This document shows positions 7,918 through 13,530 of a DNA stretch of 64,000 bases, piece after piece; the first letter of the stretch is position 1; the number at the start of each line of letters is the position of its first letter. Under the pieces are notes generated by a model. That model was not told the origin of the DNA and did no database searches. It was given only the letters and a program-made list of their open reading frames with translations. The position numbers and the translations under genes are program-made. The stretch comes from Ferrovibrio sp. MS7 (GTDB taxonomy: Bacteria; Pseudomonadota; Alphaproteobacteria; Ferrovibrionales; Ferrovibrionaceae), in the NCBI RefSeq assembly GCF_038404985.1, contig NZ_JBBKBA010000002.1:558001-622000 (forward strand). The letters run 5' to 3'.

Positions 7918-9639
7918 GTGTCCATATTCAACTTTTCCGAGCGCCGAGACGATACGGCGAAGATCGCCGCCGTGAACCGGTCCTTCGCCGTAATCGAATT
8001 CTCCCTCGACGGCATGATCCTCTCGGCCAACGAAAACTTTCTCACCGCCATGGGCTATACGCTTGAGGAAGTGCAGGGCAAGCATCACTCGATCTTCGTC
8101 GAGACGAGCTATCGCAACAGCGCCGACTACAAGGCCTTCTGGGCCAAGCTGGGCCGCGGCGAATACGATGCTGCTCAGTATATGCGCGTCGCCAAAGGCG
8201 GCCGTGCAGTCTGGATCCAGGCCAGCTACAATCCGATCCTGGATGCCAGGGGCCGGGTCTACAAGGTGGTGAAATTCGCCAACGACATCACGGCACAGAA
8301 GCAGCGCGATGCGGAATTCGAGGGCCAACTCGCCGCGATCCACAAGTCGCAGGCGGTGATCGAGTTCACGCTCGACGGCACGATCTTGAAGGCCAACAGC
8401 AATTTCCTGGCCACGCTGGGCTATACGCTGGAAGAAGTGAAGGGCCAGCATCACGCGATGTTTGTCGAGCCGGGGTATCGCGATAGCGCCGAGTATAAAG
8501 CCTTTTGGGCCAAGCTGGGCCGCGGCGAATACGATGCCGCCCAGTATAAGCGCATCGCCAAGGATGGCCGCGAGGTGTGGATCCAGGCCAGCTACAATCC
8601 GATCATGGATGCCAGCGGACGGCCCTACAAGGTGGTGAAATACGCCACCGACATCACCGCCCAGATCAAGGCGGCGCAGATGACCGAACAGGCGGTGCGG
8701 CAGGTCGGCCGTGCGGTGGACGCGGCCAAGGCACATGATCTGACGCAGCGTATCCCGTTGGATGGCAAGAGCGGCGAAATCCGCACGTTATGCAGCGGCG
8801 TGAATGATCTGATGGACACCATGGCCGGGATCATCGGCAATATCCGCGAGGCTTCCGCCGCCATTGCCGCCGCATCGGCTGAGATTTCCGCTGGCAGCCA
8901 GGACCTGGCGCAGCGCACCGAAAGCCAGGCCGCCTCGCTGGAGGAAACCGCCGCCTCGATGCACGAAATCACCACCACGGTGCGGCAGAACGCGCAGAAT
9001 GCCCAGGCCGCCAACCGGATGGCCAGCGCAGCGCGCGACACCGCCGACAAGGGCGGCAGCATCGTTGCCGAAGCCGTGCAGGCGATGGGCCGCATCGAGA
9101 GCAGCGCAGACAAGATCGCCGAGATCATGGGCGTGATCGACGAGATCGCCTTCCAGACCAACCTGCTGGCACTGAATGCTTCCGTCGAAGCCGCCCGTGC
9201 CGGCGAAGCCGGCAAGGGCTTCTCCGTGGTGGCGCAGGAAGTGCGCAGCCTGGCGCAACGCTCCGCCGGCGCCTCGAAGGAAATCAAGACGCTGATCAGC
9301 CAGTCCAATGCTCAAGTGAAGGCCGGCTCGGATCTGGTGAACAGTGCCGGCGTCGCACTCAATGAGATTGTCGGCGAGATCAAGAAAGTGTCCGATATCG
9401 TCGCCGAAATCACGGCAGCCTCGGCAGAACAATCAAACGGCCTGGAGCAGATCAATACTGCCATCGGCAGCATGGATGAAACCACCCAGCGCAATGGCGC
9501 CCTGGTGGAGGAAACTTCGGCGGCCTCACAAGCCCTGTCCACCCAGGCCAGCGACCTCGCAGCCCTGGTACAGCGCTACCGCACCGAGGAAGGCCTTGCC
9601 ATCGACCGGCGCAACATTGTGCTGCGTAACGCCGCCTGA
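7918..9639 (+). CDS. Soluble methyl-accepting chemotaxis protein with two tandem PAS domains
   Basis: A 573-residue cytoplasmic chemoreceptor with no membrane segment. It has PAS1 (about 17-128) and PAS2 (about 139-250), each ending in a PAC-like WIQASYNPI...YKVVK segment and DITAQ. A short HAMP-like linker (256-305) follows, then the MCP signalling helices, with the tip [22 protein letters not shown] near residues 409-430. The two PAS copies are close duplicates at an offset of 122 residues; [10 protein letters not shown] recurs exactly. Such PAS-MCPs usually sense redox state or oxygen through heme or flavin, but the cofactor is unknown here. A GTG start at 7918 follows AAAGGT. No CheR-binding pentapeptide ends the protein. 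Confidence 0.94.
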
Positions 9640-9647
9640 TCCGGCTC

Positions 9648-9674
9648 GCTCCATCCCCGGCAAAGGGATGGAGC
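9648..9674 (+). terminator. Hairpin after the chemoreceptor gene
   Basis: Perfect 10-bp stem GCTCCATCCC/GGGATGGAGC with a 7-base loop, 9 bases after the stop. It is followed by a second small palindrome (CGGCATCATGCCG) and no T-run. It is probably the mRNA 3' end, but not a canonical intrinsic terminator. Confidence 0.5.
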
Positions 9675-9772
9675 GGCGCCGGCATCATGCCGCCCTGATT
9701 GCAGCAGGAATATTTTCCGATAGAGCTGCCTTGGTGCGTTGATCAAAAGCAATATTTCCAATCATTTAGCGA

Positions 9773-9887
9773 CTTAACTTTCCTTATTTCTTCTTATTTC
9801 TTCTTATTTCTTCTTATTTCTTCTTATTTTTCCTTATTGCGGCTTATCCCGCCTTATGGTGCCGTATTCTGGCTCATGCCGCAGTAT
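9773..9887. repeat. Helically phased CTTAT decamer array
   Basis: CTTAT occurs at 9783, 9793, 9803, 9813, 9823, 9833, 9843 and 9853, exactly every 10 bases. One- or two-mismatch versions occupy the next phase positions at 9773, 9863, 9873 and 9883. The central copies are nearly identical TTCTTATTTC decamers. In the outer copies the flanks become GC-rich while the CTTAT core and its phase persist. It lies in the 380-base gap between the chemoreceptor and SDR genes, which otherwise holds no gene. Confidence 0.9.
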
Positions 9888-10019
9888 GAAGCCTTTGATT
9901 TACAAGAACAATGATAGTACATTTTGGCTGGTCCGTAAACCCTGCTCTCGCCCCTCCCGCCCCCAAGCGAACTCCGCTAGCCTGCGGGGAATTCAGCGCA
10001 AGGGAGGCAAAAAGCGCAG

Positions 10020-10823
10020 ATGACCAGCACCAATGCGACCAGCAGCAAAGACAAAGTGGCGCTCATCACCGGCGCAGCCCGTGGCCTTGGCCTTGCGGCT
10101 GCGCGCAAGTTTCTCGCCGAGGGCTGGCGCGTGGCCATGCTGGATATCCTGGGTGACACCCTGCGCCAGGCGGAAGCCGCGCTGAACCAGCCCGAGGCCA
10201 CGTTGAGCCTGGAAGCGGATATCGCCGATCCGGCGGCGATCATTTCGGCGGTAGCGAAAGCGCATAAGCATTTCGGCCGCATCGACGCCTTGGTGAACAA
10301 TGCCGGCATCGCCGTGTTCAAGCCGATCCTGGAGGTGACGCTGGAGGACTGGAGCCGCGTCATGGCGGTGAACCTCACCGGCCCCTTCCTGATGACTCAA
10401 GCTGTCGCGCCGATCATGCGCGACCAGGGCGGCGGCGCGGTGGTGAACATCACCTCGATCTCCGGCCTGCGCGCCTCAACGCTGCGCGTCGCCTATGGCA
10501 CCTCCAAGGCCGGCCTCGCGCATCTCACCAAGCAGCAGGCGGCCGAATTCGGCGCGCTGAACATCCGCGTCAATGCCGTGGCACCGGGGCCGGTGAATAC
10601 CGCCATGGCGAAAGCCGTGCACACGCCGGAAATCCGCGCCGACTATCACGACCATATCCCGCTCAACCGCTATGGCCTGGAAGAAGAACTTGCCAACGCC
10701 ATCTATTTCCTGTGCAGCGACCAGGCCGGCTATATCACCGGCCAGGTGCTCTGCGTCGATGGCGGCTTCGACTCCACGGGCATCGGCCTGCCGACGCTCC
10801 GGGGCGAGCGACGGAATAGCTGA
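10020..10823 (+). CDS. SDR family NAD(P)-dependent oxidoreductase
   Basis: A 267-residue classical short-chain dehydrogenase. It has the nucleotide motif TGAARGLG (17-24), LVNNAG (about 91-96), catalytic Ser about 146, Y159 and K163 in AYGTSKAG, and the C-terminal ITGQVLCVDGGF. The Asp of MLDIL near the second beta strand favours NAD over NADP. Several related enzymes oxidise sugars or acyl-ACP. Its position tail-to-tail with a UxaA-type dehydratase makes a sugar or sugar-acid substrate plausible, but this is inference. GGGAGG lies upstream of the ATG. The stops of the two genes are 7 bases apart. Confidence 0.92.
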   Translation: MTSTNATSSKDKVALITGAARGLGLAAARKFLAEGWRVAMLDILGDTLRQAEAALNQPEATLSLEADIADPAAIISAVAKAHKHFGRIDALVNNAGIAVFKPILEVTLEDWSRVMAVNLTGPFLMTQAVAPIMRDQGGGAVVNITSISGLRASTLRVAYGTSKAGLAHLTKQQAAEFGALNIRVNAVAPGPVNTAMAKAVHTPEIRADYHDHIPLNRYGLEEELANAIYFLCSDQAGYITGQVLCVDGGFDSTGIGLPTLRGERRNS

Positions 10824-10830
10824 AGCGCGA

Positions 10831-12396
10831 CTACCCCACGATGCCGATCTGCCAGGGTACGAATTCGTGGTCGCCGACGCCGAGCAGCTCGCTCTTGCTC
10901 TTCTCGCCTGATGCTGTGCGCAGAATCTGTTCGAAAATCTCCTGCCCCATTTCCTGCATCGACTTGGTGCCATCGAGAATCTGGCCGCAATTGATGTCCA
11001 TGTCCTCTTCCAGGCGGCGATACATCGGCGAATTGGTGGCGAGTTTCAGCGAGGGCACCGGCTTGGCGCCGAAGGCCGAACCGCGCCCGGTGGTGAAGGC
11101 GATGATATTGGCGCCGCCAGCGATCTGGCCCGTGGCCGAGCATGGGTCGTAGCCGGGCGTGTCCATGATCACCAGGCCCTTGGCCGTCACCGGCTCGGCA
11201 TATTTGTACACTTCCATCAGCGGCCCGGTGCCACCCTTCATGGAGGAACCGAGCGACTTCTCGAAGATATTGGCGAGACCGCCGGCCTGGTTGCCGGGGC
11301 TGACCTTGCCGTTGATCTGCACATCGCGGCCGACGGCATAGTCTTCCTTCCACCAGCGGATACGCTCCACCAGTTTCTCGCCGACTTCGCGCGTCACGGC
11401 GCGGCGGGTCAGCGTATGCTCGACGCCGTAAAGCTCCGGGGTTTCGGAGAGGATCGCGGTGCCGCCATGGCGCACCAGGATATCCATTGCCGCCCCCAGC
11501 GCCGGATTGGCGGTAATGGAAGAAAAGCCGTCCGAACCGCCGCATTGCAGGCCGACGGTGATATGGCTGGCCGAAACCGTGCTGCGCGTCACGTCATTGG
11601 CCTTGGGCAGAATCTTCTTCACGGCCTCGATGCCGGCCTCGATGGTCTTGCGCGTGCCGCCGGTCTCCTGCATCACGAAGGTGACGAGGTTGTCGCTACG
11701 CTCCAGCCCCTGCTCCGCCATCATGCCGTCGAGCTGGTTGCGCTCGCAGCCCAGGCCGATCACCACCACGGCGGCCAGGTTGGCATGGCGGATATAGCCA
11801 CCCAGCGTGCGGCGCAGCAACGCCATCGCCTCGCCGGTCATCTCCATGCCGCAGCCGAGCGCATGGGCGAAGGCGACCACGCCATCGACATTGGGGAAAT
11901 CCGCCAGGCGTTCCTCGGTGAAATGCCGCGCCACCGCATGCACCACGGTGGCGGAGCAGTTCACGGTGGAGACGATGCCGATGAAGTTGCGCGTGCCGAC
12001 GCGGCCATCCGGGCGCACGATGCCCTGGAAGGTGGCGCGCTCGGCCTCGGGTAGCAGCTCGACCGGCTTGTAGAATTGCGCATGCTGGTAGTCGCGGTCG
12101 AATTCGCGGAATTCAGTGTTGTGGTTATGCAGCATCGAACCGGCGCGGATATCATCCGCCGCGAAGCCGACCGTGACATTGTATTTCAGGATCGGCTCGC
12201 CCTTCTTCAGGTCGCGGGCGGCAATCTTGTAGCCGGCCGGCGCCTTGTCGCGGATCAGGAAGCGCGGATGCTGGTTGTCGCCATCCACCGGCATGCCCGG
12301 CACCACATCGATGCGGGCGACGACGGTGTTGTCGTCCGGGTGCAGGCGGATCACGGGGCCAATCAGGCGCTTGGCGTGCAGGTCAATCATCGACAT
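10831..12396 (-). CDS. UxaA family sugar-acid dehydratase (altronate/galactarate dehydratase-like)
   Basis: A 521-residue enzyme of the UxaA/GarD family, which dehydrates aldonic or aldaric acids with a metal centre. An N-terminal SAF-type domain (about 1-105, IRLHPDDNTVVARIDV and GSMLHNHNTEF) is joined to the catalytic UxaA domain starting GIVRPDGRVGTRNFIGI. VIGLGCERNQ, LQCGGSDGFSSITANPALG and DTPGYDPCSATGQIAGG are conserved family blocks that include the cysteines. The length equals a complete two-domain enzyme. A 16-bp LacI-type palindrome lies 23 bases before the ATG and the divergent lacI-type gene, so it is almost certainly the regulator's target. The exact substrate is unknown. Confidence 0.92.
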   Translation of the reverse strand: MSMIDLHAKRLIGPVIRLHPDDNTVVARIDVVPGMPVDGDNQHPRFLIRDKAPAGYKIAARDLKKGEPILKYNVTVGFAADDIRAGSMLHNHNTEFREFDRDYQHAQFYKPVELLPEAERATFQGIVRPDGRVGTRNFIGIVSTVNCSATVVHAVARHFTEERLADFPNVDGVVAFAHALGCGMEMTGEAMALLRRTLGGYIRHANLAAVVVIGLGCERNQLDGMMAEQGLERSDNLVTFVMQETGGTRKTIEAGIEAVKKILPKANDVTRSTVSASHITVGLQCGGSDGFSSITANPALGAAMDILVRHGGTAILSETPELYGVEHTLTRRAVTREVGEKLVERIRWWKEDYAVGRDVQINGKVSPGNQAGGLANIFEKSLGSSMKGGTGPLMEVYKYAEPVTAKGLVIMDTPGYDPCSATGQIAGGANIIAFTTGRGSAFGAKPVPSLKLATNSPMYRRLEEDMDINCGQILDGTKSMQEMGQEIFEQILRTASGEKSKSELLGVGDHEFVPWQIGIVG

Positions 12397-12418
12397 GGGG
12401 CATTCTCGGGGCTGATTT

Positions 12419-12434
12419 ATGTTACCGGTAACAT
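12419..12434. promoter_or_regulatory. Perfect 16-bp operator palindrome for the LacI-type regulator
   Basis: ATGTTACCGGTAACAT is self-complementary over all 16 bases. It has the central CpG and the TGTTAnC half-sites typical of LacI/GntR-gluconate family operators (E. coli GntR and IdnR sites look very similar). It lies between the divergent dehydratase and regulator genes, and could control both. Confidence 0.88.
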
Positions 12435-12483
12435 GACAGAGCCAAGCCTACCCCGGAAAACCCGGCTTGGCTATACTGTTCCG

Positions 12484-13530
12484 GTGACGCGCGCCAAGAA
12501 ATCCCCTGCTGCACCTGCGAAAGAACCGGCGAAAAAGCCGGCGAAAGTGCCTACTTTGGCGGACATCGCCTCAACCGTGGGCGTCACCAAGATCACCGTT
12601 TCGCGCGCCTTCAACACGCCCGGCCAGCTTTCGCCCGACACGCTGGCGAAAATCCGCGCCACCGCGAAGAAACTCGGCTACACGCCGAACCTGCTGGCCG
12701 GCTCGCTCTCATCGGCGCGCAGCAGACTGATCGTCGCCCTGGTGCCCAGCATCAGCGGCGCCATGTTCACCAGCACCATGCAGCAGGTGGCGGCACATCT
12801 GCAGGATCAGGGCTATCAGCTCCTGATCGGCCAGGCCGGCTATGACGAAGCCAGCGAGGAAGCCCTGCTCGGCGCCGTGATCGGGCGCCGGCCAGATGGC
12901 ATCATCCTCACCGGCATCGTGCATTCCGAAGCCTCGCGGCGGCAGTTGCGCGCCGCGCGCATCCCGGTGGTGGAAACCTGGGACCTGACGCCGAAACCGA
13001 TCGACATGCTGGTCGGATTTTCGCATCCGGCCATCGGCAAGGCGGCGGCCGAGCATCTCTATGAGCGCGGCTGCCGCCGCGCCGCCGTGATTTCGCCGGA
13101 CGACCGCCGCGCCAGGCTGCGTGCCGCGGCCTTCGTGGCACGCTTCCGCCAGCTTTGCGGCTGGCGTGCGCCGGTGCTGGAGGCGCAAGCGCCGACACCG
13201 ATGGGCGATGGCCGCAGCTGCCTGGCGGAATTGCTGCACCGGCACGCCGATATCGACGGTGTATTCTGCGGCTCGGACAATCTGGCGCTCGGCGCGGCGA
13301 TCGAGGCCAAGGCGCGCGGCATCGCCGTGCCGCAGACACTCAAACTGATCGGCTATGGCGACCAGAGCTATGGCAAGGATGCCGACCCACCGCTGACCAG
13401 CCTGCGCATCGAGGGTGGCGAGATCGGCCGCCTGGCCGCCGCCATGCTGGTAGCGCGTGCCACCGGCCAGCCGGTCGCGCAACGTATCGTCGATGTCGGT
13501 TTCACCCTGGTGCAACGCGGCAGCAGCTAG
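12484..13530 (+). CDS. LacI family transcriptional regulator (GntR-gluconate-like)
   Basis: A 348-residue repressor with this start. An Ala/Lys/Pro-rich N-terminal tail (KSPAAPAKEPAKKPAKVP) precedes the LacI helix-turn-helix (TLADIASTVGVTKITVSRAF) and hinge helix (GYTPNLLAGSLSSARS). A periplasmic-binding-protein-like sensor domain follows, with VALVPSISGAMF, GCRRAAVISPDDRRARLRAAAF and DGVFCGSDNLALGA. The sensor probably binds the sugar acid consumed by the neighbouring dehydratase (inference). Two starts are possible: ATG at 12433, which overlaps the operator, or GTG at 12484. GTG is preferred because a TATACT box at 12472-12477 would place the transcript start at the codon itself. Neither has a Shine-Dalgarno. 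Confidence 0.88.
   Translation: MTRAKKSPAAPAKEPAKKPAKVPTLADIASTVGVTKITVSRAFNTPGQLSPDTLAKIRATAKKLGYTPNLLAGSLSSARSRLIVALVPSISGAMFTSTMQQVAAHLQDQGYQLLIGQAGYDEASEEALLGAVIGRRPDGIILTGIVHSEASRRQLRAARIPVVETWDLTPKPIDMLVGFSHPAIGKAAAEHLYERGCRRAAVISPDDRRARLRAAAFVARFRQLCGWRAPVLEAQAPTPMGDGRSCLAELLHRHADIDGVFCGSDNLALGAAIEAKARGIAVPQTLKLIGYGDQSYGKDADPPLTSLRIEGGEIGRLAAAMLVARATGQPVAQRIVDVGFTLVQRGSS

Follow-up and report, generated by a model that had tools for sequence, protein, structure and literature searches.

Helically phased short-word arrays beside SOS-type boxes in Ferrovibrio

Direct repeats spaced by one helical turn are known as binding sites of oligomerising proteins. BldC of Streptomyces oligomerises head to tail on direct repeats whose number varies; the four protected tracts of 5 bp at smeA-sffA lie one helical turn apart, and the repeats, given as AATTXXXX(C), take up 9 bp per subunit in one site, with up to four subunits (PMC5859096, in the parts drawn on here). 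According to parts of PMC3323433 and PMC9578287, the alphaproteobacterial LexA/SOS box is a GTTC-N7-GTTC direct repeat. Winged-helix oligomers of the RdfS/Xis type read long regions with little sequence consensus, and their filaments act at the attachment and excision sites of ICEs (PMC11963761, in part).

The arrays of short words described here for Ferrovibrio resemble the BldC operators, as far as the quoted parts present them, in having direct repeats one helical turn apart, in variable number and of one polarity, and the smeA-sffA geometry is that of CTTAT-N5; unlike those operators, they comprise 3 to ~20 words with other letters (CTTAT, GTTCG, GCCAAT) and adjoin an SOS-type box. Low-consensus reading of the kind described in that part of the RdfS/Xis work could tolerate different array words. 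MraZ operators likewise consist of short direct repeats spaced by 10 bp, to which a ring or an oligomer binds; unlike the Ferrovibrio arrays, they have few repeats and another word and occur at few promoters. Bacterial minisatellites (VNTR) share with the arrays their head-to-tail 10-bp units, whereas the units of an array have only a short core in common, differ in their linkers, recur at unlinked sites and tend to a fixed side of a box. No description of modules of array and box was found among the titles and abstracts listed for open-licence PMC papers on the Ferrovibrio genome, phased or direct repeats, LexA with repeats, MraZ and BldC. The frequent occurrence of the arrays beside SOS-like promoters suggests a type of control element not described before.

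The CTTAT array of the window and its family

The window, i.e. the whole 64-kb stretch analysed, carries a helically phased CTTAT array at 9773..9889 on the plus strand, between a gene for a PAS-PAS methyl-accepting chemotaxis protein (MCP; 7918..9639, +) and one for an SDR oxidoreductase (adh_short_C2; 10020..10823, +), both assigned by gene call and Pfam. Eight exact CTTAT words follow each other at 10-bp steps (9783-9857), accompanied on the same phase by near copies with one mismatch (CTTAA at 9773, CGTAT at 9863, CTCAT at 9873) or two (AGTAT at 9883). The eight exact and four near copies of the preliminary description are thus present: CTTAT-N5 triples occur six times in the window and in none of 100 dinucleotide shuffles. 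Its remark that the outer copies have GC-rich linkers but intact phase is borne out from 9838 onward, where the linkers read tgcgg, cccgc and ggtgc and the phase is unbroken. TRF calls a 10-bp repeat at 9783-9838 and one of 30 bp at 9783-9847. A coding repeat was ruled out, because a period of 10 shifts the frame and the array is intergenic, sitting between two clear genes. The single Rfam match in 9500-10200, a sub-threshold eukaryotic lncRNA (E 0.27), was taken as chance. The SDR gene is followed by a galactarate/altronate dehydratase gene and a LacI-family regulator (10831-12396 and 12076-13530), as in a sugar-acid catabolic locus.

A DNA search of the window's genome (G000) revealed further copies, and a pattern search found eight CTTAT arrays at unlinked intergenic sites (C1:64415+, C1:1290358-, C1:1892586-, C1:2439687+, C2:567783+, C2:756147+, C3:455354+ and C4:177769+), each with 6-8 exact cores and varying linkers, mostly TYYNN. 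The window array (C2:567783+) is therefore one member of a family. The genes beside the arrays are ndk and a FitA-type antitoxin plus PIN gene; recO, a gyrase/topoisomerase IV A gene and a MazE-type antitoxin plus PIN gene; lon, an ABM-domain gene and clpX; Mrp and a glyoxalase; and, at the remaining sites, DsbA, a PfkB-type kinase, a zinc ADH, and the MCP with the SDR. A shared neighbour function was looked for and none was evident in the Pfam assignments of 26 G000 proteins or, by eye, in those right-hand proteins that were read. Two of the eight arrays (L042, L044) lie upstream of antitoxin and PIN-domain pairs (FitA-like RHH, MazE-type). Intergenic status rests on in-house codon-bias gene calls, and 7 of the 75 clusters gathered from all genomes fall inside such calls; the minus-strand cluster at L042, inside a predicted gene, is probably a chance match.

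Arrays were found in six of nine congener genomes (G000, G001, G002, G004, G005 and G008; G001-G008 being the congeners of the window's genome) and not in G003, G006 and G007, of which G003 and G007 are 83% and 87% complete. Their words are CTTAT, GTTCG, GTTCGATCC, GCCAAT and CCNGTT, mostly 10 bp apart or at 10/11-bp steps with a mean of ~10.6. Triples of CTTAT with gaps of 4-6 bp number 72 in G002, 63 in G001, 40 in G000 and 29 in G004, with lower counts in G005 (10), in the same-species genome G061 (10), in G009 of another genus (6) and in G008 (1); none occur in G003, G006, G007 and seven other genomes of the family. The reversed pattern gives 5 in G000, 2 in G005, 1 each in G061 and G001 and 0 in the others. 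At least 26 array regions are present in G002. Since GTTCG stands next to CTTAT at two loci, GTTCG arrays were predicted, and GTTCG triples were found in G005 (85), G008 (57), G001 (18), G004 (16) and G002 (12), with one each in three other genera of the family and none in G000, G061, G003, G006, G007 and G009; the reversed control gave 1 in the array-less G006 and otherwise 0. Among 385 genomes of the class, a sample with four Ferrovibrio genomes only, GTTCG x4 at exact 10-bp steps is found in two (G005, G008), as many as with the reversed control. From the triple counts in the family and the class scan, the phased arrays are a Ferrovibrio feature, with weaker signs in G009.

Four arrays of G009 (L046, L052, L056, L063) have an identical order of units, the fourth being CTTAC, and a TTGATTTCG-like motif ~35 bp upstream, by eye. 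In GTDB, CTTAT arrays occur in at least 118 stretches; among the 80 loci listed, those of Ferrovibrio are L182 (G001), L218 (Ferrovibrio sp. Gw_Bodden_bin_214, with an array of the C4 type) and L238, and the others belong to other taxa, many with simple tandem units. Among these listed matches, CTTAT also recurs every 10-11 bp, between linkers that vary, in unrelated taxa (Omnitrophota, Lachnospiraceae, Bacteroidota groups; L196, L188, L195, L201, L243, L172, L215, L237, L242); L196 has many CCCTTAT repeats between apparent pseudopilin genes, by eye. A phage origin was rejected. IMG/VR holds 85 stretches with GTTCG x4, 80 of them read, and five with strict CTTAT x4; 51 of the loci thus read (85 in total) fall within an open frame, as do all four with a box-like match, and the five CTTAT loci have one or two linkers each and no box.

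The MCP-SDR locus of G061 has neither array nor box. Its flanks match those of the window (MCP 92%, SDR 96%), and the unaligned stretch between the two genes measures 167 bp vs 410 bp in the window's genome. Upstream of the SDR orthologues of G001-G005, G007 and G008, where the sequence differs from that of the window, no array or box was seen within 430 bp by eye and word marking (G006 yielded weak matches only in the orthologue search). The fact that the same-species genome is without array and box at the locus leaves the proposed tie to the SDR gene unsupported. The window copy is thus recent, or was lost in G061, or is dispensable, and it stands outside any conserved SDR promoter. Joint absence of array and box at this locus speaks for a non-autonomous mobile element in which both travel together as a short insertion, as do the number of copies in G000 and G002 and the fixed order of array and box. 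We consider such an element very unlikely: common ends or target duplications were not seen in an unsystematic look, the distance between array and box varies from 3 to >200 bp (roughly 3-210), several copies are orthologous between species, and G061 differs over the entire MCP-SDR intergenic stretch, hence offers no clean empty site at this one locus compared.

Phase, core retention and exchange of words

In the loci read, neighbour pairs at 10 bp dominate, with few exceptions, for CTTAT in G000 (48 pairs) and for GTTCG in G005 (71) and G008 (41). CTTAT steps are of 10 or 11 bp in G002 (34 and 68) and in G001 (19 and 26), and the distances in G002 cluster at 10-11, 20-22, 31-33, 42-44, 52-55, 63-66 and 74, i.e. 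with a period of ~10.6; consecutive 10-10 steps are fewer than in permutations (8 vs 13.5, P 0.026, orthologous loci included). The reversed word TATTC is also periodic, with 11 pairs at 10 bp in G000 and, weakly, six at 11 bp in G002, because CTTATTC contains TATTC; control distances in G001, and those of GCTTG in G005 and G008, stayed below three occurrences each. Sites that share one face of B-DNA would show just such a 10/11 mixture with a mean of ~10.6. The proposal that all motifs share a helix face thus agrees with the mixed arrays but not fully with those of G000, G005 and G008, which step mostly by exactly 10 bp and drift off one face of 10.5-bp B-DNA over at least eight units.

The words seen bring an AT or a TT/AA step once per turn, which speaks for intrinsically curved DNA that would shape a promoter region. 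In a wedge model, with shuffles, flanks and phased A5 as controls, 50 arrays bend by 35 degrees, slightly above their shuffles (29) and flanks (21), with a mean z of 0.46 and four arrays with z>2; the window array bends by 37 degrees vs 34 for shuffles (z 0.18) and phased A5 by 118 degrees. The intrinsic curvature considered in the preliminary description is therefore predicted to be weak, and strong curvature was rejected, the bend being not well above the composition control. As curvature also does not account for the retention of a single word at eight loci, we regard it as a highly improbable explanation of the arrays.

Comparison of orthologous arrays separates cores from linkers. In the two arrays shared by G000 and G061, 0 of 80 core positions have changed against 6 of 80 in linkers and 3 of 259 in flanks; in five arrays orthologous between G002 and G001 (those noticed), 26 of 155 core, 99 of 262 linker and 159 of 414 flank positions differ, gapped columns excluded. 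These counts apply to cores defined on one of the two sequences and to loci picked for having arrays in both. Cores are retained and linkers drift like flanks or faster. This upholds the view that the array is not a decaying simple repeat, since there is no even decay across the unit. The expectation that relatives would keep CTTAT above its flanks holds in part: the core changes less than the linkers, but some arrays of the genus have exchanged CTTAT for another word.

This exchange was followed at two orthologous loci. Upstream of a tfoX-type gene (TfoX_N) the array consists of CTTAT in G001, G002 and G005, of GTTCGATCC in G004 and of GCCAAT, a third word at 10-bp steps, in G008 (L285/L312), with the box GAACATATAAWGAAC retained in all five genomes. 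At the second locus, upstream of the gene of a 90-aa protein without a Pfam match, the word is CTTAT in G001, G002 and G005 and GTTCG in G004, with the box in all four; G008 has only a distant match to the protein, with GAAC-N7-GTAC but no array upstream.

One of the two main rivals to a function in control is minisatellite turnover, in which 10-bp units would grow by slippage, or be spread by recombination among hot spots between genes, and would serve little if any function. Words are alike within an array, arrays come and go, as the absence of the window-locus array from G061 illustrates, and between the same-species genomes linkers change faster (6/80) than flanks (3/259). Turnover of this kind accords poorly with one word standing among differing linkers at the eight unlinked G000 sites, with cores that outlast linkers, with place, orientation and box kept across species at two loci despite the change of word, and with the linkage to the box, which is seen from both directions (see below). 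We therefore hold it to be unlikely.

The box 3' of the arrays and its promoters

In the window the array is followed by the box GAACAATGATAGTAC (GAAC-N7-GTAC; 9906..9920, +), which has the skeleton of an SOS/LexA-type operator and was recognised by both strict pattern and PWM; besides one match inside the array it is the sole site with PWM>13 in 64 kb. Across the genomes, the sequence that comes 3' of the arrays in their own orientation is GAACATATANNG[AT]ACA. A PWM>12 box occurs on the same strand within 300 bp 3' of 42 of 75 clusters (the PWM having been trained on 28 of the sites later scored), in reverse orientation on that side at 5 of 75 and on the 5' side, on either strand, at none of 75; 33 of the 75 are without such a box on the same strand 3'. 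With the strict pattern GAAC-N7-G[AT]AC, 31 of 78 clusters have a box within 350 bp 3' (29 on the same strand, two reversed) and 2 of 78 have one 5', the background being 0.033 per 350 bp. The 78 clusters of the strict count were merged to 75 for the PWM count; as many loci are orthologous, neither the cluster nor the box counts are independent, and because clusters were gathered by the words CTTAT and [GC]TTCG, other words are under-counted. Among the eight arrays of G000, three have a strict same-strand box and five a PWM box, and at one the box is reversed.

The linkage is also found in the converse direction. Allowing up to one mismatch, the box pattern occurs 43 times in G000, G002, G005 and G008. 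Thirteen of these boxes lie at arrays already known and, L311 being masked, 29 of the other 30 could be judged: 15 have a best period of 10, with a self-match of 0.60-0.82, on the expected side, L328 has CTTAT at 10/11-bp steps by eye, and 13 have no array. Hence 29 of 42 boxes have an array on the expected side and 13 of 42 have none. The opposite side of the tested boxes shows no period-10 self-match of at least 0.60 (L314 reaches 0.62 at period 11), and none of the seven boxes in the array-less genomes has an array (box vs control matches: G003 3 vs 2, G007 1 vs 1, G006 3 vs 0). Further words, CCNGTTNNRN, GCCAAT and NNTATCGNCG, were encountered at boxes located in this way, independently of arrays.

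The box is called SOS-type because it has the LexA-site skeleton, because sites of this kind stand at lexA loci and because a closely similar block is found in the recA promoters of Ferrovibrio. GAAC-N7-GAAC is present upstream of lexA at all four loci compared (G000, G002, G005 and G009, three of them Ferrovibrio), with differences from the array box inside the spacer. The recA promoters have AGAACATAT in all seven of the eight genomes that yielded a full recA (G003 gave none), with a second half that is GTCA or absent; the block ATGAGAACATAT[AG]GGGTCA occurs in five of the seven, reading ATGAGAACATATGGGGTCA in G001, G002, G004 and G005 and ATGAGAACATATAGGGTCA in G008, and G000 and G006 have TAGAACATATACGG. 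Compared with the LexA box as given in the cited parts of the literature, the array box prefers, in GTTC orientation, an inner ATATANN and a T before the second GTTC, and among 28 distinct strict sites the second half is GAAC in 18 and GTAC in 10. Unlike the sites of a LexA regulon, array boxes are tied to arrays, and the genes next to them do not form a class of repair genes. Binding of LexA and control by the SOS response are thus predictions from sequence likeness.

A motif ATTCACGATG has 67 matches within one mismatch in 596 kb, ten of them between array words and box, at loci that include L304, L313, L318, L146 and L322. In L146 and L322 it starts short ORFs running through the box (..MRTYRVQ*, ..MRTYSVH*). 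That the motif marks the beginning of a conserved small protein was weighed as a possibility but could not be established.

Read on the strand that faces the array, the box often has a TTGA-type -35 some 15 bases ahead of it and contains a -10 like TATAAT or TATATG, from which the preference for ATATANN and T perhaps derives. Promoters directed towards the array (at least 9/12) overlap the box at 16 of 47 sites vs 1.3 expected with flanks shuffled, and rightward ones at 7 of 47 vs 1.4. The promoter scan of 9600-10060 in the window gave one site only (0.4 expected in shuffles), TTTACG-17-TATCAT at 9911..9939 on the minus strand, over the box and reading leftward into the array.

The enrichment of such promoters is in line with the other main rival, that the array acts as RNA: the SOS-type promoter would drive leftward transcription of a short, unstructured repeat RNA, whose role would be to titrate an RNA-binding protein or to pair with targets. 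Where array and box co-occur, the array is nearly always on the promoter-facing side; the array stretch of the leftward window transcript folds unpaired; and 25 of 75 clusters have a convergent left gene (rough gene calls), so that a leftward transcript would be non-coding or antisense there. On the other hand, a 10/11 mixture with a mean of ~10.6 fits the DNA helix and not an RNA, the words are wholly different between loci, no terminator-like site is present in 9600-10060 and the fold of the transcript is ordinary (z -0.75), for which reason a structured RNA was rejected. We judge an action as RNA to be doubtful.

A possible control element and its readers

Phase, polarity, the constraint on the core and the preferred side of an SOS-type promoter lead us to favour, tentatively and as something short of an even chance, a control module dispersed in Ferrovibrio, composed of an SOS-type promoter and a helically phased array that is read by an oligomerising DNA-binding protein. 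Its first part would be the array, in which a short word recurs 3 to ~20 times, roughly once per helical turn; its second, ~3-210 bp 3', would be the SOS/LexA-type operator GAAC-N7-G[AT]AC on a promoter that more often reads towards the array. We propose that a small DNA-binding protein may occupy each word from the same side of the helix, its subunits lined up head to tail in a polar oligomer, in the manner of BldC or Xis. The filament beside the operator would silence or gate the promoter, and DNA damage would release LexA from the operator.

Several findings stand against such a module: the 33 of 75 clusters without a PWM>12 box and the 13 of 42 boxes without an array, the fact that the threshold for an array-ward promoter is reached in 16 of 47 boxes only while 7 of 47 point the other way, the departures of the lexA and recA sites from the array box, the exact 10-bp steps of many arrays, the lack of array and box at the window locus of a same-species genome, and neighbouring genes without an evident common function. 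The exchange of words at fixed loci is hard to reconcile with a single sequence-specific protein; it therefore calls for several readers, or for one that reads shape and rhythm. A family of exchangeable words, each read by a matching oligomerising protein, would accommodate this: word and reader would turn over together, and place, phase and damage-responsive promoter would stay. We put this extension forward as rather improbable; if true, it would describe a control system that inherits a helical rhythm and not letters.

Neither phased direct repeats nor SOS boxes are new in themselves, but their coupling throughout a genus, with position and phase preserved at orthologous loci while the word is exchanged, offers a natural experiment on the evolution of cooperative operators. 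Should the promoters respond to DNA damage, a regulatory or non-coding layer for which the papers searched gave no description would form part of the SOS regulon in Ferrovibrio.
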